Source: Promethearchaeota archaeon (lineage in GTDB: Archaea; Asgardarchaeota; Lokiarchaeia; Sigynarchaeales; SOKP01). Taken from it: a stretch of 27,695 bases of DNA. Position 1 is the stretch's first letter. Every line of letters starts with the position of its first letter. Of this stretch, positions 928-27,695 are shown piece after piece. The notes beneath the pieces were generated by a model. It had not been told where the DNA came from, searched no databases, and worked only from the letters and a program-made list of their open reading frames with translations. A program made the translations under genes and the position numbers. Location of the stretch: the NCBI GenBank assembly GCA_016839905.1, contig JAEOTJ010000243.1:1-27695 (forward strand). The letters are read 5' to 3'.

Positions 928-2064
928 TTAATAACTGAATTCTTTTATTTTTTTAATAATAAAATCCTGATCTTCATTAGTAAAATTAAGTGAAAAAGGT
1001 AATGTTAAAATCTTCTTAGAAATTTTTTCTGTTATTGGTAAATTGCCTTCTTGAACTCTATATTTCTTATGATAATAAGATTTTAAGTGAATTGGATAAA
1101 AATATACTTTAGAAAAGATTCCATTTTCCAATAAATAATTTTGAAGACTTTCTCTTTTATCTGAATTTTTTAAAAGAATACTATATAATTGATAAACATT
1201 AAAAAAGCCCTTTAATTCTGGTAAAACTTTTATATTTGGGTCTTTACTTAAGTTCTTATCATAATACTTGCCCTTAGCTCTCCTCAGATTAATCATTCTG
1301 TCAATCTTACTTAATTGTGAGATCCCTAGTGCTGCACATATAGTTGACATTCTAAAATTATATCCAATTTGAATATAATCACTCTCCTTAATATCTGAAA
1401 AATAATCAATACCTTGTTTTTCAACTCTGCCATGAGATCTAATTAATAATAGTTTTTTATATAAATTTTCATCATTTGTACAAATTGCACCCCCTTCACC
1501 AGTAGTAATGATTTTATTTTGACAAAAACTTAACATTCCAGCATCACCGATTGTTCCTGCTAAGGACTGTTTATATTTAGCTCCAAAACTCTCTGCATTA
1601 TCTTCAATTAACTTTATATTATAATCCTCAGCGATTTCTTTTAGACTATTGATATCTCGGCATATTCTCCCTCCATAATGCATTGGTATAATCGCTTTTG
1701 TTTTATTGGTTATTTTATTTAATACATCATTCGCATCTAATCCTATAGTTTGCTCTTCGATATCCGCAAAGATAGGTTTTGCTCCTGCTAATATTACACA
1801 ATTTGCAGTAGAGATAAAGGATAAAGATGGGACAATTACTTCTCCTTGAGTAATATTATTCGCTAACAACACCGCATGAAGTGCTGAGGTTCCTGAATTG
1901 AAAGTTATAACATATTTAACACCTAAATAACTTCCTAATGCTTGTTCAAATTGATTGATTTCTGGACCAGATGCCCAATATGATCCTCTTCTTATGACAT
2001 CTGATATTCTTGTTATATCTTCTTCATCCCAATAAATATCAAATAATGGATATTTCTTATTCAT
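928..2064 (-). CDS. DegT/DnrJ/EryC1 family PLP-dependent sugar aminotransferase (LegC-like)
   Basis: The 378-residue protein has the normal length and motifs of nucleotide-sugar aminotransferases. SGTSALH lies at residues 57-63, the acidic cofactor contact IEDNAES near 153-159, and the Schiff-base lysine is K184 in QNKIITTGEGG. The family transfers an amino group from glutamate to a keto-sugar nucleotide using PLP. It lies 15 bases downstream of the 4,6-dehydratase gene on the same strand, so the pair should act in sequence: the dehydratase makes a 4-keto-6-deoxy sugar and this enzyme makes the 4-amine. In a nonulosonate cluster that matches the LegB/LegC or PseB/PseC steps. Which stereochemistry applies cannot be decided from sequence alone. 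The start is the ATG at 2062-2064. Confidence 0.88.
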   Translation of the reverse strand: MNKKYPLFDIYWDEEDITRISDVIRRGSYWASGPEINQFEQALGSYLGVKYVITFNSGTSALHAVLLANNITQGEVIVPSLSFISTANCVILAGAKPIFADIEEQTIGLDANDVLNKITNKTKAIIPMHYGGRICRDINSLKEIAEDYNIKLIEDNAESFGAKYKQSLAGTIGDAGMLSFCQNKIITTGEGGAICTNDENLYKKLLLIRSHGRVEKQGIDYFSDIKESDYIQIGYNFRMSTICAALGISQLSKIDRMINLRRAKGKYYDKNLSKDPNIKVLPELKGFFNVYQLYSILLKNSDKRESLQNYLLENGIFSKVYFYPIHLKSYYHKKYRVQEGNLPITEKISKKILTLPFSLNFTNEDQDFIIKKIKEFSY

Positions 2065-2079
2065 AATAACTTAAAATAT

Positions 2080-3135
2080 TTATATTAAATTATATTTTTC
2101 AAGAAGCTCTGATATTTGTTCTTTATGTAATGGTTCAATATCTTTAGTATTATAGTTAAAAGTGTTATGTTCAATAATTTTTATACCATTAATATTTAAT
2201 TCATTCATTTCTTGTTCATTGTTCTCAAAATTAAATTGGATTAATGGATATATTATAAAACTATCTTCGGTTTCATAACAAGATCCAATTTCTACCGAAG
2301 ATATTAATTCTTCGTCAATTTTTTCACCAGGCCTAGCTCCAATGACATTTATCTTTATTGAATTTGGATCTCTTCCGATCTTATATGAATATTTTTCTAT
2401 TATTACTTCTATCAAGTCTATTATTTTAATCACTGGCATTTTTAGAACAAATATTTCACCCCCTCTAGCACTTATCGCCGATTTTAACACTAATTCTATT
2501 GCTTGTGGAATAGAAAGAAAGAATCTTCTCATTCTTTCATCGGTTAATGTTACCTTTTTTTCTCGTTTGATCTGATTTTTTATTAGAGGGATAATTGACC
2601 CTCTTGAACCTAAGACATTTCCAAACCTCACACATGAAATAATTGTTTTATAAATACCCTTGGTTAATTCTCTTGACACACATAACCGTTCTCCTAACAT
2701 TTTAGTAGCACCCATTGTTGTGGTTGGATTAATTGCTTTATCAGTTGAGATATGAATAATTTTTTTCACAGAATTAGCATAAGCAGCTTCTATTATATTT
2801 TCGAGGCCATGAATATTTACTTTAACAGCTTCCATTGGATTATATTCGCATAAGGGAACATGCTTAATCGCTGCTGTATTAAAAATATAATCAACATTAT
2901 TAGCTGCTTTTTTAATTCTTTTATAGTCTCTAATATCCCCTAATAAATATCTTGTCTTATCAGGAAAATCTTTTAAACGTAATTTAGCCTCCCAAAGCTC
3001 ATTTTCAGAATTAGATAAAATTCTAATTGCTTTTGGATTAAATTTTAGTATTTGATTAACAATCTCGGAACCTATTGTACCAGTTCCTCCGGTTACTAAA
3101 ATAATTTTATCTTCAAAAAAACTTGGAAAATCCAA
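2080..3135 (-). CDS. UDP-N-acetylhexosamine 4,6-dehydratase-like SDR (FlaA1/CapD/LegB type)
   Basis: This 351-residue protein has an N-terminal Rossmann motif (GGTGTIGSEI), then FNTAAIKHVPLCEYNP, STDKA and MGATK, and RFGNVLGSRGS. These are the signatures of the soluble Polysacc_synt_2 (FlaA1/CapD-like) dehydratases, which oxidise and dehydrate UDP-GlcNAc to a 4-keto-6-deoxy sugar. The usual SDR tyrosine is replaced by methionine in MGATK, as in the WbpM/FlaA1 branch. The likely start is TTG at 3133-3135. No ATG or GTG lies between it and the upstream in-frame stop, and AGTGAG, a Shine-Dalgarno-like run, sits about 7 bases before it. The product probably feeds the aminotransferase immediately downstream. 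Confidence 0.87.
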   Translation of the reverse strand: MDFPSFFEDKIILVTGGTGTIGSEIVNQILKFNPKAIRILSNSENELWEAKLRLKDFPDKTRYLLGDIRDYKRIKKAANNVDYIFNTAAIKHVPLCEYNPMEAVKVNIHGLENIIEAAYANSVKKIIHISTDKAINPTTTMGATKMLGERLCVSRELTKGIYKTIISCVRFGNVLGSRGSIIPLIKNQIKREKKVTLTDERMRRFFLSIPQAIELVLKSAISARGGEIFVLKMPVIKIIDLIEVIIEKYSYKIGRDPNSIKINVIGARPGEKIDEELISSVEIGSCYETEDSFIIYPLIQFNFENNEQEMNELNINGIKIIEHNTFNYNTKDIEPLHKEQISELLEKYNLI

Positions 3136-3234
3136 AAAATACTCACTATGATTAATATTTTTTTTTAAATTTTAATATATAAAAAAATGGATCAATTTAT
3201 TAATAAATAAAATATTATTCCAATATTTTTTTTA

Positions 3235-4368
3235 TTATTGTTCCCAAATAGGATCTTTTAGTATCCACTGATCGCTTTTATTTTTATAAAATAAGTCTTT
3301 ATTATAAAATTTATCAATAATACTAAAAAATTCTGTTCTTGTATAACCTGTAGAAGCACAAAAATCATCTACACATCTCTGGTCAAGATTATGATCATAC
3401 TTCTTCACTAATTTAATACCTTTTTCTCTAGTTATAACTCCTGTCTTAATTTGTCTAGAGGCTATATCAGTAGCTTGTTGATGACCAAATTTTGGGTATT
3501 TACACCATGAGTGTGTTAAATAACCGAAACTATCTACTTGACAATAATCTTCTATGTGATGAGTTCTTCTCCATTCATTAGAGAGATCTTTAAATCCTCT
3601 ACTTTTAGCAAAAATATAATTTGCATAACCATTCCATCTATAGAAATAGCTTAAATAAATTGGATCTAAATTTGCAGCTTTCATTTCTTCAACTGAAGGA
3701 TATTTTAATAAAACTAAATCTTTCATTTCTACTCCATCGAGCGCTGCTAATTCTTCTAAAGGGATTCCTGAGGCAACATCATTATAGAATTGATCTGTTG
3801 CAGAATAAGTTTCTTCTGTTTGATAACCTCCGTATTCATAATTTACATTTTCTCCATAAACAACAAGTGGTAGTTTTAAATTTATTGCCATATGAATTGG
3901 AAAGGAATAAATTAATCTATCAATATAATAAGTTGGTTTAAGATACTTTTCAAAGGTGTATTTCATAATAATTTTTTGAATCTGAGAATTAGGTTTCATA
4001 CTAATAATATCACATCCAAATTCTCTTGATATATTTTTAATATTATGTTTACCAGCTTTAGTCATTGTAAAATTATCTTCAACAGTAACCAGTAAAGGAT
4101 TCATATCCATCACTTCTTTCATTATATGAACTTGAAAATGACTATCTTTACCCCCACTAACAGCAATTAAACAGTCATATTGATTATTGTGTACTCTTTT
4201 ATATTTATCACATAATTGTTTTAGCTCATTTTTCCTAGAATCCCAATCAATATGATCTTTTTTCTCTTCATTAATACATGCTGAACAAATACTTTCTTCA
4301 TTGAAGATAATTCCTGGCCTTGTATCAGGCATTACACATTTTTTACAATATTTCATAATTTTAATCAT
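3235..4368 (-). CDS. N-acetyl sugar amidotransferase, WbpG/WbuX/PseA family (copy 1)
   Basis: The protein has 377 residues. Two Cys pairs (C8/C11 and C28/C31) form a likely zinc knuckle, followed by the PP-loop ATP-binding motif SGGKDS at 71-76. Later come YGENVNYEYGGYQ and a C-terminal ASRQIKTGVITREKG segment. This is the architecture of the WbpG/WbuX enzymes, which adenylate an N-acyl group on a sugar and use ammonia to make an amidine. Ammonia is supplied by HisH/HisF-like partners, and exactly such a fusion is encoded divergently at 4515-5969. Two ATGs are possible, at 4366-4368 and four codons later at 4354-4356. The second gives the usual MKYCKKC start of the family. It is transcribed toward the dehydratase-aminotransferase pair. 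Confidence 0.9.
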   Translation of the reverse strand: MIKIMKYCKKCVMPDTRPGIIFNEESICSACINEEKKDHIDWDSRKNELKQLCDKYKRVHNNQYDCLIAVSGGKDSHFQVHIMKEVMDMNPLLVTVEDNFTMTKAGKHNIKNISREFGCDIISMKPNSQIQKIIMKYTFEKYLKPTYYIDRLIYSFPIHMAINLKLPLVVYGENVNYEYGGYQTEETYSATDQFYNDVASGIPLEELAALDGVEMKDLVLLKYPSVEEMKAANLDPIYLSYFYRWNGYANYIFAKSRGFKDLSNEWRRTHHIEDYCQVDSFGYLTHSWCKYPKFGHQQATDIASRQIKTGVITREKGIKLVKKYDHNLDQRCVDDFCASTGYTRTEFFSIIDKFYNKDLFYKNKSDQWILKDPIWEQ

Positions 4369-4446
4369 CTAAATATTAGATAGCTTAGTTATTATAAGAA
4401 AATGAACGTACCATCTTATATTAAATTTATACATAATACAAATATA

Positions 4447-4462
4447 TCTAATATATATTAGA
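4447..4462. promoter_or_regulatory. 16-bp perfect palindrome between divergent amidation genes
   Basis: TCTAATATATATTAGA reads the same on both strands. It lies in the 146-base gap between the divergent amidotransferase (minus) and HisF-HisH fusion (plus). The position suits a shared operator or a bidirectional TATA element. The gap is extremely AT-rich, so chance is a real alternative. Confidence 0.3.
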
Positions 4463-4514
4463 AAAATTCTTTTATGCAAAAAATTAATTTTTATTAAATA
4501 TTTTTAATATATAT

Positions 4515-5969
4515 ATGACAATGATAAGGATAATTCCTAGATTAGATGTTAAGAGAGCAAATGTAGTTAAAGGCATAAATTTTGAAGGATTAAGAGTTGT
4601 TGGAAAACCAGATGTGTTTGCTAAAAAATACTATGATCAAGGTGCCGATGAATTACTTTATATTGACATAGTTGCTAGCCTCTATGAAAGAAATAATTTA
4701 AGTAATGTAGTTGAAAATACTTCCTCTGTAGATGCATTCATACCTATAACTGTTGGAGGAGGCATCAGAAAAATAGAGGATATTAGAAAATTACTATATG
4801 TTGGAGCAGATAAAGTTGCAATTAATACTGCGGCAACAAGAAATCCAAAATTCATAACTGAAGCATCAAGAATATTCGGTTCTCAAAGTATTGTAGGGTC
4901 AATTGAAGCAAAAAAGACAGGCTCAAATAAATGGGAAGCTTATATAGATTGTGGAAGAGAAAAAACAGGAATAGATGCTGTTGAATGGGCAAAAGAATTA
5001 TTAGATTTGGGCGTTGGAGAATTGTTGATAACTTCTGTAGATTTTGAAGGTGAACAAAAAGGTTATGATATCAAATTATTGAAAGCGATCTCTCAAGAGA
5101 TTGATATTCCCATTGTAGTATGTGGTGGTGCAGGAAATCTTGAACACCTTAATATATGCTTAAATGAAGTTACTTGCGATGGTATCTCTATGGCATCAAT
5201 TCTTCATTATGATAAAAGTAATATTAAAGAAATTAAAGATTATTTACAAAAATCTGGTTATATTGTCAGAAAACCATCTAACACCAATGAAGGCTTAATT
5301 AAACATAATAAAAATATAAAAAGGAAAAAAATTAGTATTATAGACTATGGGGCAGGAAATATTCGTAGTGTTTATAATGGATTTATAAATATGGGAAATG
5401 AAGTAAATGTTATTAATAAACCTGAAGAAGTGGAGAATGCAGAAGCAATTGTTATTCCAGGTGTGGGAGCATTTGAGGATGGTATTAAAGGATTAAAAAA
5501 TAAAAAATTAATTGAACCATTAATCGAACATATTAATAACAATAAACCTCTCTTAGGGATTTGTCTCGGAATGCAATTACTAATGAGTGAAAGTGAAGAA
5601 TTTGGAAATCATGAAGGACTAGATGTTATCAAGGGAAAGGTTCAAAAATTTAAAGATCCATTGGTGGTTAAGAAAAAAGGGTATTTTGTACCCCATATAG
5701 GTTGGAATACTGTTATTTCCTATAAAGATAAGAGCTGGGACAGCTCTATTTTAGAATACGTTCCTAATCATTCGGAAGTATATTTTGTTCACTCTTTTTA
5801 TCCGGTATTAGAAGATAGCCAATATATTATCGCAGAAACGATTTATGGTGGTCAAAGATTCTGCTCATGTTATAGAAAAGGAAATATTTATGGCACACAA
5901 TTTCATCCTGAAAAGAGCGGAGATATTGGTTTACAAATAATTAATAATTTTGGTAAAATTTCTAATTAA
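4515..5969 (+). CDS. HisF-HisH (WbuZ-WbuY) fusion: ammonia-supplying glutamine amidotransferase for sugar amidination
   Basis: Residues 1-253 are a HisF-type (beta-alpha)8 barrel: RIIPRLDVK with D11, phosphate-binding VGGGI at 80-84, TSVDFEG with D176, and CGGAG at 203-207. A linker of about 18 residues leads to a HisH-type class I glutaminase at 272-484, with PGVGAFEDG, nucleophile C350 in GICLGMQLL, and H464/E466 in FHPEKS. The phrase ELLYIDIVASLYERN is typical of WbuZ, the HisF paralogue of glycan amidation clusters. The position of catalytic D130 of Thermotoga HisF is E131 here. The neighbours are two WbuX amidotransferases and no his genes, so glutamine-derived ammonia for amidination is the likely role, not histidine synthesis. 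The domain order is the reverse of eukaryotic HIS7, where the glutaminase comes first. Confidence 0.88.
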   Translation: MTMIRIIPRLDVKRANVVKGINFEGLRVVGKPDVFAKKYYDQGADELLYIDIVASLYERNNLSNVVENTSSVDAFIPITVGGGIRKIEDIRKLLYVGADKVAINTAATRNPKFITEASRIFGSQSIVGSIEAKKTGSNKWEAYIDCGREKTGIDAVEWAKELLDLGVGELLITSVDFEGEQKGYDIKLLKAISQEIDIPIVVCGGAGNLEHLNICLNEVTCDGISMASILHYDKSNIKEIKDYLQKSGYIVRKPSNTNEGLIKHNKNIKRKKISIIDYGAGNIRSVYNGFINMGNEVNVINKPEEVENAEAIVIPGVGAFEDGIKGLKNKKLIEPLIEHINNNKPLLGICLGMQLLMSESEEFGNHEGLDVIKGKVQKFKDPLVVKKKGYFVPHIGWNTVISYKDKSWDSSILEYVPNHSEVYFVHSFYPVLEDSQYIIAETIYGGQRFCSCYRKGNIYGTQFHPEKSGDIGLQIINNFGKISN

Positions 5970-5999
5970 TTTGTGAATAAGAAATAAAAAAATTAGATA

Positions 6000-7223
6000 T
6001 TATTCATCATATACAGTATGTAGTAATTTCCATTCTCCATTTTCTTTTTTCCATAAATGTGGAGAACGATATTTATTAATAGTTTCCCAAAAGTGCTCTT
6101 CTGTCATATTATTCATATATTTTAAAAATTCTTTAAAATATTTTGTAGGAAATTCATGATCAAATTTTTTAACTAATGTAATGCCTTCTTCTCGAGTAAT
6201 TTTAAAGTTTCAAATTTCTTGAGAGGCATCATAACTCGCCCTTCCAATACCAAATTTTATATATGTTGTATAATAATGGTAAGGATCAGTTCTATCATCA
6301 ATGCTATTATATTTTGAATATGTTCCTTCAGTACGCTCACAGTTGGCTTTAAAACCAGTATTCTCAGATGCATAATAATATGCTTCTTGAGGGTCCCATT
6401 TTAAATAATATCCTAAATAATGAACCTGAATTTCTTTCTGGATATATAAATCTGGATTCATAGGCAGATAAGGATTTAGATCGTTCATATTTAATCCATA
6501 TTTATCCTTAAGAGTTCTTATTAAGACGCCTCCTAAGTATATATTGTCATAATTATTTCCTGTTGCATATTTCATATCTCTCATAGGTGTTAAAGCATCT
6601 TTTAATGGATTACCATATTCTGCCTCATTTTCTCCATAAAAAACTAATGGAATATCATATAAAGTTGCGAATTTTGCACCAATATTTTTTTGTCCAAGAA
6701 TAAAGGGTTGAAATGGATGTAAAAGGTTATCAAATGCTAGACGTGTTAAGAGCCGATGAATTTTACCATTTGGTTGAAATAATATATTATCAAAACCAGA
6801 ATGAATCCATTTTTCAAAATTATTCAAACCAACTTCTGTATAAAGATGAGGTGCCCATGTCACAGTTAAGGGATGCATATCAAATTTAAATTTTAACATA
6901 TGTGATGCATATACGCTATCTTTCCCACCACTCCCAGGAACAATACAATCATATTTTCCATCATCACGGCGATATTTATCACATAGATCTCTTAGCTCTT
7001 GTTCCCTTTTATTCCAATCTATTTCTTTATGTTTTCTTTCTGATAGTCTACAAGCATCACAAACCCCATCATCATCAAAATTTATCGTAACTTTCTTTGT
7101 TTTAATATTATGCTTAAATTCTAAGGCAGAATTAGGACGCTGGTTTGAAATAACGCATTTTTTGCAAAAAATAACATCTTTTGGAAGCCCAAAATAAACC
7201 TCCAAGTTTTTAAAATCATTCAT
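6000..7223 (-). pseudogene. N-acetyl sugar amidotransferase, WbpG/WbuX family (copy 2), interrupted by in-frame TGA
   Basis: From the ATG at 7221-7223 the first 337 codons encode C20/C23 and C55/C58 (zinc knuckle), PP-loop SGGKDS at 98-103, and FYGENEAEYGNP. They stop at a TGA (6210-6212) right after YDASQEI. The same frame then continues NFKITREEGITLVKKFDHEF to KYRSPHLWKKENGEWKLL and ends at TAA (6000-6002). That tail is the normal C-terminus of the family. Copy 1 has ASRQIKTGVITREKG at the same place, so the TGA replaces a lysine/arginine codon (one base from AGA). The interruption is either a real nonsense mutation, a sequencing error, or readthrough. If translation stops there, the protein lacks 69 residues but keeps the ATP site. 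Extended this way, it ends 30 bases from the convergent fusion gene. Confidence 0.8.
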
Positions 7224-7267
7224 TTTGCTATAAAAAAATTGATTTTTGATTATATTCTAATTATATT

Positions 7268-7292
7268 ATATATATTTTCATAAAATATATAT
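7268..7292. repeat. Inverted repeat, 11-bp perfect arms with 3-base loop, in divergent intergenic region
   Basis: The arms ATATATATTTT (7268-7278) and AAAATATATAT (7282-7292) are exact reverse complements around CAT. It lies between the divergent copy-2 amidotransferase and the formyltransferase-like gene, so it could be an operator or overlap core promoter elements. Low complexity weakens the case. Confidence 0.35.
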
Positions 7293-7378
7293 TTAATTAT
7301 TTTAAAGATTATATTCTCAACTTTAAAAAAATATAATTATTAGAAGATAACATATTTAATTTCGCATTAAATTAAATT

Positions 7379-8065
7379 ATGATTGATTTGAAAATATTAC
7401 TCCTAATAAAACCTACATCTTGGGGTAAATTAGCAAAAGAATTTATTGAAAAAAAGTTTCCAAATAATTTAGTATTAACAGCGGATTGGGGAGATCCGAA
7501 ACCAAAAATTCTTTTTAAATGGGAAGGAGATTATATTATCTCTTTTTTATCTCCATGGATATTACCTCAAGAAATATTAAATAAAGCAAAAATAGCAGCA
7601 ATCAATTTTCATCCTGCTCCTCCGGAATATCCTGGAATTGGATGTTATAATTTTGCGATTTATAATGATGATAATGAATATGGTGCAACCTGTCATCATA
7701 TGCTTAGAAAGGTTGATTCAGGACAAATTATTACAGTAAAACGGTTTCCTATTGAGAGTCATGAAACTGTATTGAGTCTTAAGGAAAAAACAATGAATAT
7801 TCTTATGCTTCTTTTCTATGAGATAATGGATATTATTATAAAAGGAAAAGATTTACCCATTTCTTCAGAAAATTGGCATAGAGATGCTTATACAAGAAAA
7901 GATTTTCAAGATTTGTGTAGGTTATCTTTACAGATGCCTGAGGAAGAACTAGTAAAAAGATTAAAAGCTACTTATTTTGCAGGGGCTAGAGATTATCCAA
8001 ATATTGAGATTGGTGGTAAAATATACCTTTTAGTTGATCCTAAAGAATTAAAAAAAGAATTATAA
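7379..8065 (+). CDS. Formyltransferase-fold enzyme, probable sugar N-formyltransferase
   Basis: The 228-residue protein matches the catalytic domain of 10-formyltetrahydrofolate-dependent formyltransferases. The triad is visible as N76 and H78 in INFHPAPPEYPG and D113 in KVDSGQI, with FLSPWILP before it as the folate-side loop. Methionyl-tRNA formyltransferase is normally over 300 residues with a C-terminal tRNA-binding domain, and archaea do not formylate initiator tRNA, so a small-molecule role is more likely. Sugar formyltransferases of this type (VioF, QdtF, WlaRD families) formylate an amine on a 4-amino-6-deoxy sugar. The cluster makes such an amine and lacks a visible N-acetyltransferase, so formylation of the nonulosonate precursor is a good hypothesis. 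The gene converges on neuC with 7 bases between. Confidence 0.78.
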   Translation: MIDLKILLLIKPTSWGKLAKEFIEKKFPNNLVLTADWGDPKPKILFKWEGDYIISFLSPWILPQEILNKAKIAAINFHPAPPEYPGIGCYNFAIYNDDNEYGATCHHMLRKVDSGQIITVKRFPIESHETVLSLKEKTMNILMLLFYEIMDIIIKGKDLPISSENWHRDAYTRKDFQDLCRLSLQMPEEELVKRLKATYFAGARDYPNIEIGGKIYLLVDPKELKKEL

Positions 8066-8072
8066 TAGATTT

Positions 8073-9236
8073 TTATACATTATAAGTGATTTTCTTAATT
8101 AAAAGGTTTTTATTAATATTTATATCTTCAAGAGCTTTAACTACTTTCTCAACAGCTTTTCCTTTACCATATGGATTTTCTACATTCTTACATAATTCTT
8201 TAAATTCTTTTGAAAATCCTTTTTTAATTGATGCTATTATTTCTGATGATTCAAAACTTGAATGTATTACATTTTCTCCAGTTTCACGCCCTTTATTTCT
8301 ATTACCTAAATTTACAACCGGAATTTTAAAAGAGGGAGCTTCTGTAATTCCACTACTACTATTTCCAATTAAGAGATCAACATTTTTTAATAAGCTTAAA
8401 TAATCTTTTCTTTTTAAATTCTTAAAAATCTTAAATTTTTCAACATTCTCCCTTGCAATTATTTCTTTTATAATTAGATCACTGCCAGGATCATTATTTG
8501 GATAAATTATTACAGTTTGAATTTTAAGATTTTGCAAAATGTCTAATATTTCCGTTATTTGGAATCCCGCTTTATTAGATTCAAAAATATATGGATGAAA
8601 GATACATAATATTATTTTTTCTTTAGAATTTAATCCTAATAATTTACATATTTCTTCTTTTGTATAGAGCTCCTCTTCATATATAATATCAAGACCAGGA
8701 GAACCATACATATGAATTCTCCATTCTTCTTCACCTAATAATTTGATTCTTCTGGAACTTTTAGGACTTATAGGAAAATGTATATTAGCAAATTTAGTTA
8801 TTGCATGTCTAATTTGTTCATCGACCTGTCCCATAAACACACTATCCCCTCCTTGAATATGAGCAATCGGTATTGTTAATGTTGAGGCTGCTATTACAGC
8901 TGCTAGAGGTTCATATCGATCCCCCCATACTAATAGTAAATCAGGTTTTATTTCATAGAAAGCTTCTGTAAAATTAATAACAGCTTTTCCAAATCCCAAT
9001 CCTACCCGAATTTCCATATTTACATCTTCATCATACATCGGAATTACTTTTGCTATAGATATACCATCTTCTTTTATAATATTAATTGTTTCTCCATATT
9101 TTTTTAATAAATGCATTCCTGTAACTAAAAGAGATAATTTTAATTTATTAGACTCTTCTATTTTTTGGATAAGTGATTTTAATAGCCCATATTCCGCTCT
9201 AGTGCCCGTAATGACACATATATGCTTTTTCTTCAT
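8073..9236 (-). CDS. neuC: NeuC/LegG-type UDP-sugar 2-epimerase (hydrolysing)
   Basis: The 387-residue protein begins ICVITGTRAEYGLL and contains VWGDRYEPLAAVIAAS, HIQGGDS, a QVDEQIRHAITKFANIHF segment and IGNSSSGITEAPSF. These are diagnostic of the NeuC/LegG/NeuC-like branch that epimerises C2 and releases UDP, giving ManNAc or its 2,4-diamino-6-deoxy analogue. Because a 4,6-dehydratase and aminotransferase are nearby, a LegG-like substrate is as likely as UDP-GlcNAc. The ATG (9234-9236) directly abuts the neuB stop codon (9237-9239), so the two are translationally coupled. It is the last gene of the operon neuA-SDR-neuB-neuC. Confidence 0.9.
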   Translation of the reverse strand: MKKKHICVITGTRAEYGLLKSLIQKIEESNKLKLSLLVTGMHLLKKYGETINIIKEDGISIAKVIPMYDEDVNMEIRVGLGFGKAVINFTEAFYEIKPDLLLVWGDRYEPLAAVIAASTLTIPIAHIQGGDSVFMGQVDEQIRHAITKFANIHFPISPKSSRRIKLLGEEEWRIHMYGSPGLDIIYEEELYTKEEICKLLGLNSKEKIILCIFHPYIFESNKAGFQITEILDILQNLKIQTVIIYPNNDPGSDLIIKEIIARENVEKFKIFKNLKRKDYLSLLKNVDLLIGNSSSGITEAPSFKIPVVNLGNRNKGRETGENVIHSSFESSEIIASIKKGFSKEFKELCKNVENPYGKGKAVEKVVKALEDININKNLLIKKITYNV

Positions 9237-10289
9237 TTATATTAAATCATCCCATAGTAATATTGTATCAGGTGGAATATCTTTTTTTACTTTTTTTCCA
9301 ATTAATTCTTCAAAATATTTAGGACGAATTCCATTACCCGGTCTTTTTATACCAATATCATCTCGTTTGATAATAGTTCCTTTCAATATATTTTTTAAGG
9401 TAACTATACTTTTTCGAGCAATTAAAGCAATTTCCAACTCATTTTTCGATGCGAATTTTTCATAACTTCCCAAACTCTTTTCAGTTTTTCGGATTGTTTT
9501 TACCCAGTCATTCAATTCTCCTGGATCTAACGAAGCTTTATGATCAGGGCCTTCCATATTCTTATCTAATGTAAAATGTTTTTCAATAACTTTTACTCCC
9601 ATAGCTGTAGCAACGATTGATGCTTCAAAACCTAAGGAGTGATCTGAAAAACCTATTATATCATCAGGAAATTCCTTAATATACGTTTTAATAACATTAA
9701 GATTTAATTCCTCGATATTAGCAGGATAATTAGTAGTACACTGGAGGATTATCAAATCTTTGAGACCTTTTTCTTTAATTAGAGAGACTGATTCCTTAAC
9801 CTCATCAAGATTTGCCATACCTGTCGACAATAATATAGGCTTTCCTTTTGAACATATTTTTTTTAGAAGTGGATAATTGTTCATATCTCCAGAACCTACT
9901 TTATAAGCAGGTATATTAATTTTATCTAAAAGATCAACCGATTCCTCTCCAAATGGCGTTGAGAGAAATATAATTCCTTTTTTATCACAATAATCCTTAA
10001 GTTCTTTAAAATCCTCTTCTTTTAAGGTAAGCCTTTTGATGAGAGAGTAAAAATCTTCATCATCATTTTTATTCTTTCTTTGATATTCTACTTTTGGGGT
10101 TGATTTTAATAATAATTCTTCGGCATTAAATGTTTGAAACTTAATAGCATCTACATTAGATTCGAATGCTATATCTACCAATCTTATAGCTAAATCTTTC
10201 TTACCATTATGGTTAACACCTGCCTCAGCAATTAGGAAAACTTGAGAGTCTTTACCAATAACCTTATTTTCTATTTTAATTTCATTCAT
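9237..10289 (-). CDS. neuB: NeuB-type nonulosonic acid synthase (sialic/legionaminic acid synthase)
   Basis: The 350 residues fall into a TIM barrel, with LIAEAGVNHNG near the start, IKFQTF, STPF, KVGSGDMNNYPLL, LSTGMA, QCTTNYPA, GFSDHSLG and EKHFTLD, and a C-terminal SAF (antifreeze-like) domain from about 290 containing IKRPGNGIRP. This enzyme condenses phosphoenolpyruvate with ManNAc or a 2,4-diamido-6-deoxy-mannose to make a nine-carbon acid. All motifs and the SAF domain are intact, so it should be active. It starts at ATG 10287-10289, 21 bases after the SDR gene. Confidence 0.93.
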   Translation of the reverse strand: MNEIKIENKVIGKDSQVFLIAEAGVNHNGKKDLAIRLVDIAFESNVDAIKFQTFNAEELLLKSTPKVEYQRKNKNDDEDFYSLIKRLTLKEEDFKELKDYCDKKGIIFLSTPFGEESVDLLDKINIPAYKVGSGDMNNYPLLKKICSKGKPILLSTGMANLDEVKESVSLIKEKGLKDLIILQCTTNYPANIEELNLNVIKTYIKEFPDDIIGFSDHSLGFEASIVATAMGVKVIEKHFTLDKNMEGPDHKASLDPGELNDWVKTIRKTEKSLGSYEKFASKNELEIALIARKSIVTLKNILKGTIIKRDDIGIKRPGNGIRPKYFEELIGKKVKKDIPPDTILLWDDLI

Positions 10290-10310
10290 TTTAGAATAAT
10301 TATGATAAAT

Positions 10311-11117
10311 TTAAATAGTCCAGCCTCCATCTACTAAAAGAACCTGCCCTGTGATATAAGCAGAGGCATCTGAGAGTAAAAATATAACTGGTCCTACAAT
10401 GTCATCGGAGTTGGCCATTCTTTTGAGAGGGACTTTATTAATATATTTTGATACAAAATTTTTTGGTTGATTATCAAATAACCCACCTGGAGCTATAACA
10501 TTTGCTCTTATATTATATGATCCGTAATAGGAAGCTATGTATTTTGTCAATAAATTGATACCTGCTTTAATAGATGGATATGCTATAGGTGTAGTCATTT
10601 CTGTACCCTCATATATTTTAAAATCGGGAGCTGAAACTCCATAAATAGAACCCATATTGATAATACTACCAAATCCCTGATCTTTCATAATTTCTGCTAC
10701 ATTAATTGAAGTTAGATAATAACCTCCTAAATGAAGATTTAAATTTTCTTTCCAAGATTTATAATTTAAAAGTTGTTCTTTATCACCCCAATCTTTTGTT
10801 TTTGGATATGCCGTATTTACAAATCCATCTATTACATCATATTTTTCTTTAATTTTTTGTAGTAAATTTTTAACAGAATTTTCATCAGAAATATCAGCTG
10901 GTATAAACGATATTTCTTGATTAACATCATCAAATTCTTCCATTAATATTTTACCTTTATTCTTATCAATATCACTAACTATTACTTTAGCACCAGCATA
11001 TACAATATTTTTAGATATAATAGAACCAATAAGACCTATACCTGTAATTAATATATTCTTATTTCTAAGTTCAAATTTTTCTGGCCAGACTTTAGTAGTC
11101 AAATTTAAATTCACCAT
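10311..11117 (-). CDS. Short-chain dehydrogenase/reductase, PtmA-like, of the nonulosonate operon
   Basis: This 268-residue protein is a classical SDR. It has ILITGIGLIGS as the cofactor loop (with a shortened glycine pattern), FVNTAYPKTKDWG, INMGSIYG, the active-site Y-x3-K as YPSIK, NVIAPGGL, and a C-terminal GQVLLVDGGWTI. AYPKTKDWG and the company of neuA/neuB recall PtmA, which accompanies legionaminic acid genes in Campylobacter flagellin glycosylation. Its exact step is unsettled: an oxidoreduction of a sugar intermediate or of the finished acid is possible. It overlaps the end of neuA by 26 bases, a sign of operon structure. Confidence 0.85.
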   Translation of the reverse strand: MVNLNLTTKVWPEKFELRNKNILITGIGLIGSIISKNIVYAGAKVIVSDIDKNKGKILMEEFDDVNQEISFIPADISDENSVKNLLQKIKEKYDVIDGFVNTAYPKTKDWGDKEQLLNYKSWKENLNLHLGGYYLTSINVAEIMKDQGFGSIINMGSIYGVSAPDFKIYEGTEMTTPIAYPSIKAGINLLTKYIASYYGSYNIRANVIAPGGLFDNQPKNFVSKYINKVPLKRMANSDDIVGPVIFLLSDASAYITGQVLLVDGGWTI

Positions 11118-11799
11118 TTTTAATTAAGAATTCTAAAAATTTAAAATCAATCTCTCTATCTATATCAATACTTATATCTGACATTTTATAAACAATTGCT
11201 TTTCCAGAATATAATGTATTCATTTTTTTTAAAAAGTCTCTTTTTATGATATAAATAGAGGCATTTAATGAATACACTTCAGGGGCTTTTTGTCTTGAAA
11301 AAACAGCATTATTTGGTTTTTTACATAATTTAGCATAACCATCCTCATCTATTTCCACCATATTAAAGTATGGATTCTTTTGACAGGGATATACACTGAA
11401 TATTATATCAGCATCTTTCTTAATTATTTTTTGGTAGGATTCCTCTATATCCTTAAGGAGTCTAATTGGAGATGTAGGATCTAAATCAACAATATAATCA
11501 TAAACATTGTGTTCTTCCTTTTCACAATAACTTATTATATGTTTCCAAACATCAATCTTGGAAGCATCGTCGGTAGCTAATTCATTGGATCTTAAGAACG
11601 GAGCTTCTGCACCATATTCTACAGCAATTTTTTTAATTTCCTCACTATCAGTCGAAAAAATAATCCTATCACATTTTCCCCATTCTTTTAATGCTTGAAT
11701 AGAATAATAAATAAGAGGTTTCCCTAAGAATAATCGAATATTCTTATTTTTAATCCCTTTTGAGCCACCTCTTGCACAAATGGTTCCTAAAATTCTCAT
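11092..11799 (-). CDS. neuA: CMP-nonulosonate (CMP-sialic/legionaminic acid) cytidylyltransferase
   Basis: The 235-residue protein opens with the nucleotide-binding loop ICARGGSKGIKNKNIR. It then has STDSEEI, a DPTSPIR segment and SDISIDIDREIDF, as in NeuA/LegF/PseF CMP transferases. These activate the nine-carbon acid with CTP so that a transferase can use it. It is the first gene of the minus-strand operon. A possible TATA-like TTTATACTA lies about 40 bases upstream on the minus strand. PtmB from Campylobacter is the same family and pairs with PtmA, which fits the overlapping downstream gene. Confidence 0.9.
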   Translation of the reverse strand: MRILGTICARGGSKGIKNKNIRLFLGKPLIYYSIQALKEWGKCDRIIFSTDSEEIKKIAVEYGAEAPFLRSNELATDDASKIDVWKHIISYCEKEEHNVYDYIVDLDPTSPIRLLKDIEESYQKIIKKDADIIFSVYPCQKNPYFNMVEIDEDGYAKLCKKPNNAVFSRQKAPEVYSLNASIYIIKRDFLKKMNTLYSGKAIVYKMSDISIDIDREIDFKFLEFLIKNGEFKFDY

Positions 11800-18760: not shown

Positions 18761-20848
18761 TCAGGCTCGTTTTATATATCTTTTCAAGGAGACGCTTGGT
18801 GACTGTAAGGTTATTCTTTCATAGAAATTATAACTAATAAGATGCAACTGCTCTTTAATTGTTTTTACTAAATTTTCATATTCTTTAATATAATAGATTT
18901 GTTGTATAGGTTTCGGAAGTTTATAATCATTTAAATTTCCTGAGGCTCCCTCAATCTTCCATCTATCATAGTCAAAGTGATCATCAAATGAAATTTCTTT
19001 TATAATATCTGATAGTTTTAATCTTCCATCTTTTTTATCCTGTATTAACCAATGTCTTCTATCATATTCTATCACTTGTTTTAGAGTTGTTATTTCTTCT
19101 GAAGTAAGTTTTTGTTTTGCATAATGAATAATAAGTTCAGCAATGTTGTCTAAAAGCTCAATATTATGAAAAAGACAATAACCTACAAATCCAATATTCA
19201 ATTTAAAATAGTTACCACCACTTGAGATCAGATCATTCCATTTCAAATCATCTTTTATTAAAATATCAATTAAAGCCTCCTCAGAAGGTGATAATTCATT
19301 CTCAGAATATTTTCGATAATCTTTAAATAAAAGATGAAGTTTTAGATATTTGTCTTGATTTTGTTGAATATATTGCATAATATCTATAATGTCTATGCTT
19401 TTTGATAATAAAAACGCTAATGTATCTGAAAATGTCCCATATCCCGTTAAAAGAGTTTCCATAAATCCTAATTCCCGTACGAATAAGTAATCTTCAAAAT
19501 CAAAGGAATTACTTTCAATTGCGATTTCTTCAACTTCAACAACCCGTATTGGATCTTCACCAGGAAGTAATTGATATTCACCAAATCTATTATTAATTGG
19601 TCTGAATTTTGACTTATAATTATATATCTCACGTTCAAATTCAGATAATTGTGTTCCTGAAAGTAATCTTAATTGATATGTAGCAACTGATTCTATTCCC
19701 AGAGATCTAAGCTCTGACATTGTTTTAATAAATGAAGATTTAGTTTCTCCAGGAAGTCCAAATATTAATTCCACTTGTACTGGCATACTTGTTTTTTTTG
19801 AGAGATTAATCAATTCTCTCATTTCATCAATGTGAACGTTCTTTCTTTTGCAATTTTGAAGAACATCAGTTGTAAGGGTTTGAACTCCAAATTTTAAAAC
19901 TCCCGTTATTTCTGCAAGAATTCTCATTATCTCTACGGTAGACCTCCTTCGATCTTTTGATGTAGCAAATCCAGCTATAAATGGAAATTTATGTTTTGTG
20001 TACATATCTTGAATGAATGATATAATTCTCAAATCTCGTTCACCCATTAAGCCAAAGTTTGTATCAATAAGGTCAATGTCATTAGTTATTGAGTTTTTTA
20101 ATAAATATCGTAATTCTTCATATACTACGTTTTCGTCTTTAATAATTAATCTTGAAACGAATTTATCTCCTCCACCGCAATAGGTACATTGATGGGGGCA
20201 ACCACGTACAGTTTCAAATGTAGGTAAAAAACCATCCTTAATGAACTTATAAAGATATCCTTGTAGATATGGAGAAGGCATCTTATTAAGGCCTGATATA
20301 TCCTTTACAATTTCTCCACGCAGAATTGGTCCTTTACCTTCTTTTCGTATCGCACTACCTTGAATGCTATCTGAAAAAATTAGATCTCGATCTAATCCAT
20401 TTATTAGTATTTTATGTACTATGGATGCAAATGTCTTTTCACCTTGATCAAGAACAACAATATCGATGCTAGGATTCTCCTTTAAAAGGATTATATAACG
20501 GTCTGTAATTCTCGCTACATTTGGTCCACCTATAACAGTAATCGTTGATGGACTTATTTTTCTACAGCATTCTAAAACCTTTAAAGTGATATTTTTATTC
20601 CACATATAAAATGAACAGCCTAGAATATCTGGTGGAGTTTTATTTACTTCTTCCATTAATTTTTCTGGATGTTTAAAAAGCTTAATATCAATATCTTCAC
20701 CAAATTGGCTCATACAATAGCTTTTTATTGAACCAATTCCAAGCGGAACAGAGATTCTATTACCTAGAAAGAAATGATCCAAATCAGCAAGGTAAATATT
20801 TAATTTTTCTTTACTTTTGATGTATTTATTTTTATTTTTAGAACTCAT
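18761..20848 (-). CDS. B12-binding-domain type radical SAM protein (large)
   Basis: The 695-residue protein has an N-terminal Rossmann-like B12-binding-type region (about 15-190). PDILGCSFYMWN and VIGGPNV are seen there, but not the base-off DxHxxG motif. Next comes a radical SAM domain with C217-x3-C221-x2-C224 in RGCPHQCTYCGGG, then FGVQTLTTDVL and ELIFGLPGETKSSF. The last 250 residues are helical and not recognised. Proteins of this layout modify lipids, cofactors or natural products, and they are common in archaea and anaerobes. Its link to the glycan cluster rests only on position: it converges with the oxidoreductase (21-base gap) and has its own promoter region upstream. Confidence 0.82.
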   Translation of the reverse strand: MSSKNKNKYIKSKEKLNIYLADLDHFFLGNRISVPLGIGSIKSYCMSQFGEDIDIKLFKHPEKLMEEVNKTPPDILGCSFYMWNKNITLKVLECCRKISPSTITVIGGPNVARITDRYIILLKENPSIDIVVLDQGEKTFASIVHKILINGLDRDLIFSDSIQGSAIRKEGKGPILRGEIVKDISGLNKMPSPYLQGYLYKFIKDGFLPTFETVRGCPHQCTYCGGGDKFVSRLIIKDENVVYEELRYLLKNSITNDIDLIDTNFGLMGERDLRIISFIQDMYTKHKFPFIAGFATSKDRRRSTVEIMRILAEITGVLKFGVQTLTTDVLQNCKRKNVHIDEMRELINLSKKTSMPVQVELIFGLPGETKSSFIKTMSELRSLGIESVATYQLRLLSGTQLSEFEREIYNYKSKFRPINNRFGEYQLLPGEDPIRVVEVEEIAIESNSFDFEDYLFVRELGFMETLLTGYGTFSDTLAFLLSKSIDIIDIMQYIQQNQDKYLKLHLLFKDYRKYSENELSPSEEALIDILIKDDLKWNDLISSGGNYFKLNIGFVGYCLFHNIELLDNIAELIIHYAKQKLTSEEITTLKQVIEYDRRHWLIQDKKDGRLKLSDIIKEISFDDHFDYDRWKIEGASGNLNDYKLPKPIQQIYYIKEYENLVKTIKEQLHLISYNFYERITLQSPSVSLKRYIKRA

Positions 20849-24343: not shown

Positions 24344-26020
24344 ATGGATAAAGATAGAATTTTAAAGGAAGCTCAAAGAATTGCTAGGAAATTTTCATTT
24401 TGGATGGTTTCAGGAAATGTTTCTCACTTATATGGACATGTATATGAAACCAAGGACATTAAATATGAAATGGAAATTAAATTCGATGAGAACTTCCCCC
24501 AGTCACCTCCAAAGTTAATTTATCATGATGCTATTAAAGAATTATTAGGAGATTTTCAGTTAAAAAAATTAAAAAATTGGAATCCAGATTCATTTGTAGT
24601 TGATATCATTAATGAAATTAAAATAAAAATTCTAGATAAAATAGGAGAACCTAAAATCATTGAGGAAGAACCAGTTCCAACAAAGGTAGAAAAAACCTCT
24701 CAAGCTGATTCTGAAGAATATATCACACCAGATTTAAATGCTTATCCTATGGATCCACAAGATAATGATTATGTTACTCCTTCTTCTACCGATGATTATT
24801 CTTATGAAGCTCAATCGGATTCCAGTATCGGTTCATCCTCAATTTCAGATCCCTCAACACCAGAATCAAGCGAAAAAGCTCAAGAGGGAAAGGCTTTAGA
24901 GATAGATGAAACAAGCATCGCAGCATCCGAAGAATTAGGTTTAATCCAACAAGAATATGCATATGATCAAAAAGGTTCCCAGAGTGCAGAGATTAATATT
25001 TATTTAACGATTACTGTAGCAAAAACCTTTATTATTGAAATAAATTTTATAAAATATCCAGAAAAACCAGAAATAATCTTTCCTAATGAAGTTAAAGACC
25101 TTTTAGGGGTTCCTGAAGAATCTTTAGATACATTAAAAAAATGGAATCCTAAAAAACCTCCTCATATTATTGATATTATTCATGAATTAGAAAGAAAGTT
25201 ATTTTTCATACAAGATATTGAATTGGAATTAAAAAAGATTCTTGGGGAATATCAATGCGATAAAGTTAGTAATAGCATGACTCAATTAAAAGTCCATTTA
25301 TTAACATATGGATTCAAAGAATATTTATTAGATATTGATTTGGGACCATATCCAAAACATCCCAAATTTAATTTAACACCTGAATTAACACAAATTATAC
25401 AAGTACCTATTGAATCATTAAAAAGTCATAAAAGTTGGAAAGAAAAGGAATCGGAACCAGTAGAAATTCTTAGAGAATTATCTTGGTTAGTAGATAAAAA
25501 TTCAAGAATGAATTTTGAAATTGATTTATTAAAAGAACATTATAAGAACATTAATTATGATTCTACAACTGAAACAATAAAAATTGATATGAAGGGTAAA
25601 ATGAAAACACAGGATCTTACTTTTCAATTTGAAATTGATCTGCCTCGTGATTATCCAATGACAATGCCGGAGATTAAAGTTTTAAATGAATTTGAATTAG
25701 AAACCCAAGAAAAGATCAAAAATGATTTGCAAACATCCTTTAATGATTTTTTTAAAGAATGGACGCCTTTTAAATATCTAGTTGATTTATTTAATAAAGT
25801 TTCTGAAAAAATATTTGAAGTTTCGGTAGTAAGTTGTGTAATCTGTCATAAAATTGAGTGTCCTACTTGCTCATTGAAGATTGCGGGCAGTGAATCTTGC
25901 CATGTTTCATGCCCACACTGCGAGCGTAGCTACCATACCCATTGTTGGATGCAGACGATACAATCATTTGGTAAGTGTGGATTTTGTTTACGCACACCTC
26001 CGGCGGATGCTAACTTCTGA
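24344..26020 (+). CDS. Four UBC/RWD-like repeats plus C-terminal RING-like zinc domain
   Basis: The 558-residue protein has four related units: about 1-100, 197-290, 291-386 and 387-494. Each shows an aromatic-P-x-x-(x)-P turn (FPQSPP 51-56, YPEKPE 238-243, YPKHPK 336-341, YPMTMPE 437-443). About 25-35 residues later comes a Trp in a helix-leading motif (W79, W267, W365, W473, three followed by xP), then an amphipathic helix. This is the pattern of RWD/UBC-fold domains, without a catalytic Cys. Residues 101-196 are an acidic, Ser/Pro/Tyr-rich linker. Residues 498-548 hold C498, C501, C506, C509, C519, C523, C526, H531, H533, C534, C545 and C548, as in a RING-like treble clef. RWD plus RING is a eukaryotic E3 ligase layout (RNF14/RNF25 type). 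The role here, in an Asgard-type ubiquitin system, is inference. Confidence 0.72.
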   Translation: MDKDRILKEAQRIARKFSFWMVSGNVSHLYGHVYETKDIKYEMEIKFDENFPQSPPKLIYHDAIKELLGDFQLKKLKNWNPDSFVVDIINEIKIKILDKIGEPKIIEEEPVPTKVEKTSQADSEEYITPDLNAYPMDPQDNDYVTPSSTDDYSYEAQSDSSIGSSSISDPSTPESSEKAQEGKALEIDETSIAASEELGLIQQEYAYDQKGSQSAEINIYLTITVAKTFIIEINFIKYPEKPEIIFPNEVKDLLGVPEESLDTLKKWNPKKPPHIIDIIHELERKLFFIQDIELELKKILGEYQCDKVSNSMTQLKVHLLTYGFKEYLLDIDLGPYPKHPKFNLTPELTQIIQVPIESLKSHKSWKEKESEPVEILRELSWLVDKNSRMNFEIDLLKEHYKNINYDSTTETIKIDMKGKMKTQDLTFQFEIDLPRDYPMTMPEIKVLNEFELETQEKIKNDLQTSFNDFFKEWTPFKYLVDLFNKVSEKIFEVSVVSCVICHKIECPTCSLKIAGSESCHVSCPHCERSYHTHCWMQTIQSFGKCGFCLRTPPADANF

Positions 26021-26272: not shown

Positions 26273-27695
26273 ATGACCTTACCCGAAGAAGAACAGAAAA
26301 TATTAGATTATTGGGATTCAATTGAAATATTAAAATTAATACTTAATGCTAAAAAGCCTAAGGGCAAGTATGAATTTACAGAAGGACCTCCTACGGCAAA
26401 TGGATTACCTGGAGTCCATCACGTTTATTCAAGGAGTATAAAGGATATTATTATTAGATTTAAATTTATGGAAGGTTATTGGGTTCCTAGAAAAGCAGGA
26501 TGGGACACTCATGGATTACCAGTAGAATTAGAGATTGAAAAAAAATTAGGTTTAAAGACTAAAAAGGATATTTTGGATTATGGAATTGATAAATTCAATG
26601 AAAAATGCCGGGAGAGTGTTTTTACTTATGTAAAAGAATGGGAAAAGCTAACAAAAAGAATGGCATTCTGGTTAGATATGAATAATCCTTATATCACTTG
26701 TGAGAATTACTTTATGGAGTCTATATGGTGGTCCTTAAAACAGATATTTAAGAAAAACTTAATTTATAAGGGTAGAAAAGTAGTACCGTTTTGTCCTCGC
26801 TGTGAAACGACATTATCATCTCATGAAATCGCCTTAGGGTATCAAAATGTATCTGAAGAATCTATTTATATCACTTTTAAATTATTAGATCCAAAATGGG
26901 AAGGCGCAAAAATTATTGCTTGGACTACAACCCCTTGGACTTTATTAAGTAATATCGCTCTTGCTGCGAATCCTGATAGTCGGTATTCTCTTATTGAATA
27001 TGAAGGAGAAAAATTAATCATCGCCACCACTTTAATTCATAACATTTTAGAAGAAGGTACATACAAGAAAATAAGAGAGTTTTTCGGTTCAGACTTGATG
27101 TATGAAAAATATGAACCTTTATTTCCATATTTTGAATATTTATTAAAAGAAAATGGATATGTGGTTATAACTGGAGACTTTGTCACTACTGAATCCACAT
27201 CAGATAATATATCAACGGGATTTGTACATATTGCTCCGGCGTTTGGTGAAGATGATTTTAATGTCGGTCAAGAATTTGAGCTTCCATTTCTACAACCGAT
27301 TAATGAGAAGGGTTATTTTGATGATACTATTCCTCCTCTTGCGGGGAAATATTTTAAAATACACAGGGAGGATATTGGAAAAGAAGATGTGTGGGATACT
27401 GATAAATGGGTCGTTGATGAGTTGAAGAAAAAGGGGAAATTATATGATATAAGAGATTATGCTCATGATTATCCTTTCTGCTGGAGATGCAAGCGAGCAT
27501 TATTATATTATGCTAGGGAGTCCTGGTTTATTGAGATGACCCGATTTAGGGAAGCTCTATTAGAAACTAATGAAAATGTAAATTGGGTCCCAAAATCTAT
27601 TGGTATTGGGAGGTTTGGTAACTTCTTGGATCATGTAAGAGATTGGGCAATCTCTCGGGAGAGGTTCTGGGGCACTCCATTACCCCTTTGGATAT
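26273..27695 (+). CDS. ileS: Isoleucyl-tRNA synthetase, N-terminal part (runs off right edge)
   Basis: 474 codons are visible from ATG 26273-26275. Landmarks in order are YEFTEGPPTANGLPGVHHV with the HIGH-equivalent GVHH at 47-50, and RKAGWDTHGLPVELEIEKKL. CP1 editing-domain motifs follow (WTTTPWTLLSNIALA and GFVHIAPAFGEDDF), then two CxxC pairs (FCPRC and FCWRC), and DWAISRERFWGTPLPLW at the edge. This is a class I IleRS of the archaeal/eukaryotic branch. The KMSKS loop and anticodon-binding region lie outside the window. No Shine-Dalgarno is obvious. AGATATACT about 27 bases upstream could be a TATA box for a near-leaderless transcript. Confidence 0.95.
   Translation, partial: MTLPEEEQKILDYWDSIEILKLILNAKKPKGKYEFTEGPPTANGLPGVHHVYSRSIKDIIIRFKFMEGYWVPRKAGWDTHGLPVELEIEKKLGLKTKKDILDYGIDKFNEKCRESVFTYVKEWEKLTKRMAFWLDMNNPYITCENYFMESIWWSLKQIFKKNLIYKGRKVVPFCPRCETTLSSHEIALGYQNVSEESIYITFKLLDPKWEGAKIIAWTTTPWTLLSNIALAANPDSRYSLIEYEGEKLIIATTLIHNILEEGTYKKIREFFGSDLMYEKYEPLFPYFEYLLKENGYVVITGDFVTTESTSDNISTGFVHIAPAFGEDDFNVGQEFELPFLQPINEKGYFDDTIPPLAGKYFKIHREDIGKEDVWDTDKWVVDELKKKGKLYDIRDYAHDYPFCWRCKRALLYYARESWFIEMTRFREALLETNENVNWVPKSIGIGRFGNFLDHVRDWAISRERFWGTPLPLWI

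Follow-up and report, generated by a model that had tools for sequence, protein, structure and literature searches.

A probable RING-type ubiquitin ligase with an array of RWD-type units in Asgard archaea

Asgard archaea are the microbes closest to eukaryotic cells. RWD-RING ubiquitin ligases (E3s) are known from eukaryotes, and a small RING E3 protein is known from archaea. The locus described here raises the question of whether an Asgard archaeon encodes a large E3 of the RWD-RING kind. The gene occupies positions 24344..26020 (+ strand) of a 27,695-nucleotide stretch from Promethearchaeota archaeon (assembly GCA_016839905.1, contig JAEOTJ010000243.1), which we call the window, and its open reading frame runs from ATG to TGA and encodes 558 amino acids. 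An initial annotation of the sequence had proposed four RWD/UBC-like repeats joined to a RING-like tail in an apparent archaeon. We find four UBC/RWD units followed by a single C-terminal RING-like domain, no catalytic cysteine of a ubiquitin-conjugating enzyme (E2), RING ligands that are invariant among homologues, and an extra ligand set that is lost as a unit. We conclude that the gene probably encodes an Asgard ubiquitin E3 ligase of the RING type, in which the RWD array would hold substrate or ubiquitin and the RING would engage a particular E2.

Homologues were collected in a search that gave 321 matches at E <= 0.01, and all counts out of 120 refer to the best 120 of these. The structure was modelled with AlphaFold2 on the 120 aligned homologues (mean predicted local distance difference test (pLDDT) score 77.2; predicted template-modelling score 0.55). 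In the model, each unit has a helix followed by a meander of strands and ends in C-terminal helices, in the element order of RWD and UBC folds, which is the topology that the initial annotation had anticipated from a structure prediction. U1 (residues 3-100; 24350..24643) is E2/UEV-like, U2 (residues about 190-287; 24911..25204) and U3 (residues 288-371; 25205..25456) are RWD-like, and U4 (residues 372-495; 25457..25828) is RWD/UEV-like, all on the + strand. U2 is delimited by secondary structure and by its profile match to U1 and U3, and a long helix (residues 372-399) connects U3 to U4. In Pfam, the window protein scores 33.1 bits against UQ_con (cut-off 27) and 31.2 bits against RWD (cut-off 22.8), and both families match at E <= 1 in 33/33 members of a first alignment and 35/35 of a more diverse set. 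The predicted structure combines the helix, strand meander and helix of the UBC/RWD superfamily with its YPxxxP-type turn. As the initial annotation had noticed, an aromatic-P-x-x-(x)-P turn is present in every unit (F51P52..P56, Y238P239..P242, Y336P337..P340 and Y437P438..P442), each with one tryptophan downstream (W79, W267, W365 and W473) that is conserved in 120/120 homologues. Also as annotated, a linker separates U1 from U2 (residues 101-189; 24644..24910, +), and most of it is predicted to be disordered, with pLDDT below 50 at residues 103-131 and 133-188. Embedded in this disorder at residues 126-136 (24719-24751) is the motif YITPDLNAYP (TPDL--YP), in which P129 and P135 are invariant and T128, D130, L131 and Y134 are kept in at least 90% of the 120 homologues, conservation such as a docking motif would show.

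We also compared the units with one another and with known E2s. Profile-profile comparison of non-overlapping units gave probabilities of 96.8% for U1-U2, 97.6% for U2-U3, 73.0% for U1-U3 and 73.6% for U1-U4, and six column-reversed control profiles all scored 2.3% or less. U4 went unrecognised against U2 (0.5%) and U3 (0.1%), which weighs against a simple four-repeat reading; we count it with the set because of its Pfam RWD match and its fold. The catalytic cysteine that would mark an active E2 is absent from all four units: Q72 of U1 lies opposite the catalytic cysteine of Rad6 in the profile alignment to PDB sequences, and C305, near the start of U3, is the only cysteine of the window protein outside the zinc tail. 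Profile searches of PDB returned mainly E2s among the matches listed (the best 60 of 108, 60 of 167 and 60 of 329), with RBX1 and one sliding clamp also in the first, and none of these listed matches was named FANCL or BRE; in a single-sequence search against PDB, BRE appeared as a weak match at E 0.4 and worse. We took as chance the NCBIfam matches among 33 members, which were of adenine phosphoribosyltransferase type or single strays, and as cross-matches the Pfam hits of several members to Rubicon-homology and Med15_C, which lay under the curated cut-off where shown.

The Cys/His-rich tail that the initial annotation had called RING-like corresponds to residues 498-550 (25835..25993, +), where eight ligands in RING order (C498, C501, C523, C526, H531, C534, C545 and C548) are invariant in 120/120 homologues and in 149/151 of a wider set, in which the remaining two sequences are truncated. 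I500, within the opening Cys-x-Ile-Cys, is likewise invariant in 120/120. We presume that Ile309 of FANCL occupies the corresponding motif of that ligase. This residue contacts the E2, according to the available text of one report (PMC5264512). Besides the eight ligands, C506, C509, C519 and H533 (25859..25942, +) make up a further Cys3-His set in the register of RBX1. The third zinc site of RBX1 has ligands that we take to be C53, C56, C68 and H82; judged by sequence, the four residues match the RBX1/APC11-type third zinc site and likely form a third metal site. Among the 120 homologues, C506-C509 and H533 were lost jointly in 4/4 loss cases, with two exceptions elsewhere, and the position of H533 changed from histidine to cysteine in 3/15 divergent relatives. 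The window protein differs from RBX1 and APC11 in the fusion of its RING to RWD units and in its second zinc site, because C523 aligns with a tryptophan of RBX1. Residues 520-542 of the modelled tail include two short strands and one helix. A profile search with the RING ranked first, at E 0.0025-0.0055, RBX1 in 19 sequences together with one further RING protein; the next protein followed at 0.1, and PHD proteins at 0.16 and worse. RING and U-box structures, against which the initial annotation had proposed a comparison, dominate the fold list for the tail alone, but the matches are weak, PHD fingers appear in the list and as weak Pfam matches, and Pfam Prok-RING_1 stayed under its 29.1 cut-off in every protein with a score inspected.

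The host proposed by the initial annotation agrees with the distribution of the family, as every organism-named match among those listed in three homologue searches (with the window protein, the homologue from genome G090 and a profile of divergent relatives) is from an Asgard archaeon. The divergent-Asgard profile search, which was aimed at eukaryotic FANCL and BRE, returned 52 matches whose organism-named members are all Asgard, and it excludes little because scoring was confined to the 7,989 candidates with most words in common. In the phylum that includes G003, 75 of 227 genomes contain at least one profile match, which reaches E <= 1e-60 in 40, and eight genomes contain 4-6 matches each, which are partly pieces of a single gene. 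A three-unit version that lacks U1 is 34-39% identical to the window protein, with matches named Helarchaeota, Promethearchaeota or Lokiarchaeota; genomes G088-G091 are labelled Helarchaeota-like because Helarchaeota make up most of the organism-named close matches to the G090 protein. Annotation sources already call some family members ubiquitin-protein ligase, E2 variant or E2. Several irregular members and relatives were also observed. A duplicate remnant of U1 with an internal stop lies upstream of the intact gene (L001:3534-3905), and at L101 (G111:C4) the family gene is spread over two reading frames, which may reflect assembly error or decay. A small Asgard protein (L112:1920-2579, G008) joins an RWD-like unit (profile E 4e-14) to a JAMM-type domain (Prok-JAB 2.3e-6), L112 being the only one of the phylum matches of about 225 amino acids whose domains were scanned. 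Another gene (L114:103-1698) fuses an ABC-type ATPase domain (ABC_tran 1.4e-6) to U1- and U2-like units, and a 264-amino-acid protein (L116:1941-2732, G107) contains a RING-like domain of identical ligand layout, with no RWD units detected.

We sought ubiquitin-pathway families in the genomes of 8 relatives, from the 12 genomes behind the contig loci, and in 14 control genomes. The initial annotation had pointed to ubiquitin, E1 and E2 genes as a test, and ubiquitin, ThiF (E1) and UQ_con (E2) were all found above cut-off in 8/8 relatives. The control genomes gave 0 matches to ubiquitin, 0 to UQ_con and 12 to ThiF; ThiF alone is unspecific, because 12/14 controls match. Some of the weaker UQ_con matches in the host genomes are the RWD-RING protein itself, and the sole strong E2 match of G001 has an in-frame stop. 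In 3/4 Helarchaeota-like genomes (L097, L098 and L099), an E1-like gene adjoins the three-unit homologue on the same strand; at L096 the family gene is near the contig end and has no E1-like neighbour. The fullest arrangement is at L098:6034-10880 (G090:C6), where RWD-RING, E1-like, E2 and JAB genes follow in that order, all on the + strand. These genomes have a second type of E2, which we call E2-B. The E2 of this array is 64% identical to its Lokiarchaeota form, to which Lokiarchaeota E2-A sequences are 37-40% identical. E2-B (E <= 1e-60) occurs in 63/227 genomes of the phylum, comprising 34/40 with a strong family match and 29/187 without (odds ratio 31, Fisher p 3e-17, uncorrected for kinship and assembly gaps), and the best E2-B and family genes share a contig in 6/34 genomes with both, 2.9-204 kb apart. 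Lokiarchaeota have two distinct E1-E2 sets: one is arrayed with ubiquitin and JAB (ubiquitin, E1-like, E2 and JAB at L117, and an order alike by position at L119, within the loci L117 to L119), and at L120 E2-B stands with a longer E1-like gene. Other E3 candidates exist, because zf-RING_2 gave 2-16 matches per genome in fourteen genomes searched. The suggested role in the ubiquitin pathway gains from the pathway families in 8/8 relatives and from the E1, E2 and JAB neighbours, and E3 activity itself we still infer. The archaeal Caldiarchaeum operon likewise encodes a ubiquitin cascade that includes a RING E3, and in the accessible parts of its descriptions it comprises ubiquitin, E1, E2, a small RING protein and Rpn11 (PMC5654768, PMC6043591); unlike that operon, whose E3 is the small RING protein, the G090 array contains a large RWD-RING protein.

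We next consider which known architecture the protein resembles. A Foldseek search with the whole model placed at ranks 1-7 BRE (6gvw), chain L of the Fanconi core complex (two matches), BRE (6h3c), chain M of the Fanconi core complex, chain e of the yeast ribosome-associated quality control (RQC) complex and chain F of a human LTN1-containing complex, at E 9e-8 to 1.3e-4, matched along the chain and ahead of any single E2. The Fanconi chains (ranks 2, 3 and 5) are presumably FANCL, and those at ranks 6 and 7 presumably LTN1. Because BRE, FANCL and LTN1 precede any single E2 in this ranking, FANCL, and not RNF14 or RNF25, represents the closest architecture. The initial annotation had named RNF14 and RNF25 as known RWD-RING E3s, but the fold matches do not support them as nearest relatives: those E3s have one RWD, and the match to RNF25 is to one RWD domain. 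RNF14 is a RING-between-RING ligase with further zinc domains in a RING-IBR-RING2 series, and that series is absent from the window protein, which ends in one zinc domain. FANCL binds its substrate through the double RWD and ubiquitin through the E2-like fold. Its order is E2-like fold, double RWD and C-terminal RING in the accessible text (PMC5264512), and the window protein similarly places several catalytically dead UBC/RWD folds, in order, ahead of a single C-terminal RING, with a long helix joining two RWD folds before the RING and Cys-x-Ile-Cys opening it. It differs from FANCL in its four units instead of three, its long linker after U1 and its extra RING ligand set, and a sequence match to the FANCL family was limited in Pfam to FANCL_d1 at E 0.11 in 1/33 members.

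The top fold match raises the alternative that the protein serves as scaffold in a complex that reads or removes ubiquitin, like BRE/BRCC45 (BABAM2; BRISC, BRCA1-A) in BRISC, in which UEV/RWD units would bind ubiquitin and partners and the tail would be structural. Besides its rank, BRE is the only eukaryotic multi-RWD family that we observed above its Pfam cut-off of 25.8 bits (P0110 at 30.7 and P0012 at 25.9, with P0028 under it at 24.8), and it matches at E <= 1 in 3/33 and 10/35 members versus 0/4 Asgard E2s. The RWD-JAMM protein and the JAB gene of the G090 array are also in keeping with such a complex. However, the eight RING ligands and the isoleucine of Cys-x-Ile-Cys are invariant in 120/120 homologues, whereas BRE, which works in a deubiquitinase complex, is not known to have a RING. 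Furthermore, the window protein has no Pfam BRE match at E <= 10. We therefore consider this scaffold role unlikely.

Foldseek ranks 6 and 7 similarly raise the possibility of an LTN1-like ligase of ribosome-associated quality control, in which the last RWD would dock on the large subunit and the RING would tag stalled nascent chains. Listerin/LTN1, in the available text of its description, has an RWD that precedes its C-terminal RING (PMC4321881), an order shared by the window protein. Yet LTN1 has HEAT repeats and one RWD, and the window protein has four RWD-type units, a linker and the tail within 558 amino acids, with no HEAT-repeat region. A link to translation might be read into the partial isoleucyl-tRNA synthetase gene (ileS; 26273..27694, +; best NCBIfam match ileS TIGR00392, E 4e-159) that follows the gene and runs off the window. 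It is the next gene downstream in 12/32 loci (one contig is counted twice, and in L100 a short antisense open reading frame intervenes); elsewhere, one gene intervenes in L003, ileS is divergent in L086, and several loci end too early. Nearness to ileS is weak functional evidence, however, and is unseen in L096-L099, and we regard the LTN1-like role as improbable. The synthetase of the window shares 76% identity with its L088 counterpart and about 33-36% with the gene-adjacent ones of most other loci, a case of two types at one syntenic place. Finally, a zinc-finger adaptor outside the ubiquitin system, with UBC/RWD folds as general binding modules and a PHD-like or other treble-clef reader as its tail, appears highly improbable: RWD folds also build kinetochore assemblies (accessible text of PMC5264512), kinetochore RWD chains match the model and PHD fingers occur in the RING fold list and as weak Pfam matches, but RBX1 heads the RING profile search, where PHD proteins score no better than E 0.16, RING and U-box structures dominate the tail fold list, and E1, E2 and JAB genes are neighbours in related genomes.

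We return to the reading of the protein as a RING-type E3. Its RING fold is matched weakly, and Foldseek with the RING alone gave no match at E <= 0.001. We base a working mode on gene neighbourhood and architecture; metal binding, E2 binding, ligase activity, an E2-B partnership in Lokiarchaeota and the role of each unit are inferred. The C-terminal RING, with its probable third zinc site, would bind a ubiquitin-loaded E2, most likely E2-B. The catalytically dead UBC/RWD units, arranged as an array, would hold and present the substrate and perhaps also bind ubiquitin non-covalently, as FANCL does, and U1, on its flexible linker, may contact ubiquitin or a partner. A possible but doubtful extension is that a pre-eukaryotic Asgard E3, which combined an RWD array with a three-zinc RING and used a particular second E1-E2 pair, was ancestral to FANCL, BRE, the RWD-RING part of LTN1 and perhaps the three-zinc RING of RBX1/APC11.

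Elsewhere in the window, positions 928-11799 hold nonulosonic-acid genes, of which NeuB and NeuC exceed their cut-offs and PseF-, PseB- and PseC-like genes lie under them, together with two WbuX-type amidotransferases and a fusion of HisF/WbuZ-like and HisH-like domains (4515-5969). A B12-type radical SAM protein, under the cut-offs of named families, is encoded at 18761-20848.

Our searches of open-access papers found no report of an archaeal multi-RWD, FANCL-like E3 with a RING of three-zinc type. There, Asgard combined with FANCL or with listerin returned none, Asgard combined with RWD and ubiquitin returned kinetochores only, and the term RWD occurs 0 times in the accessible text of a paper on the Asgard ubiquitin-ESCRT system (PMC9192718). 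The E1-like, E2, RWD-RING and JAB proteins of G090 provide a concrete set for an Asgard ubiquitin cascade in vitro. If our reading is true, the archaea nearest to eukaryotes already had large modular E3s that used dead E2 folds as binding modules, as eukaryotic ligases of DNA repair and ribosome quality control do, and how multi-RWD and three-zinc RING ligases arose would become a testable question.
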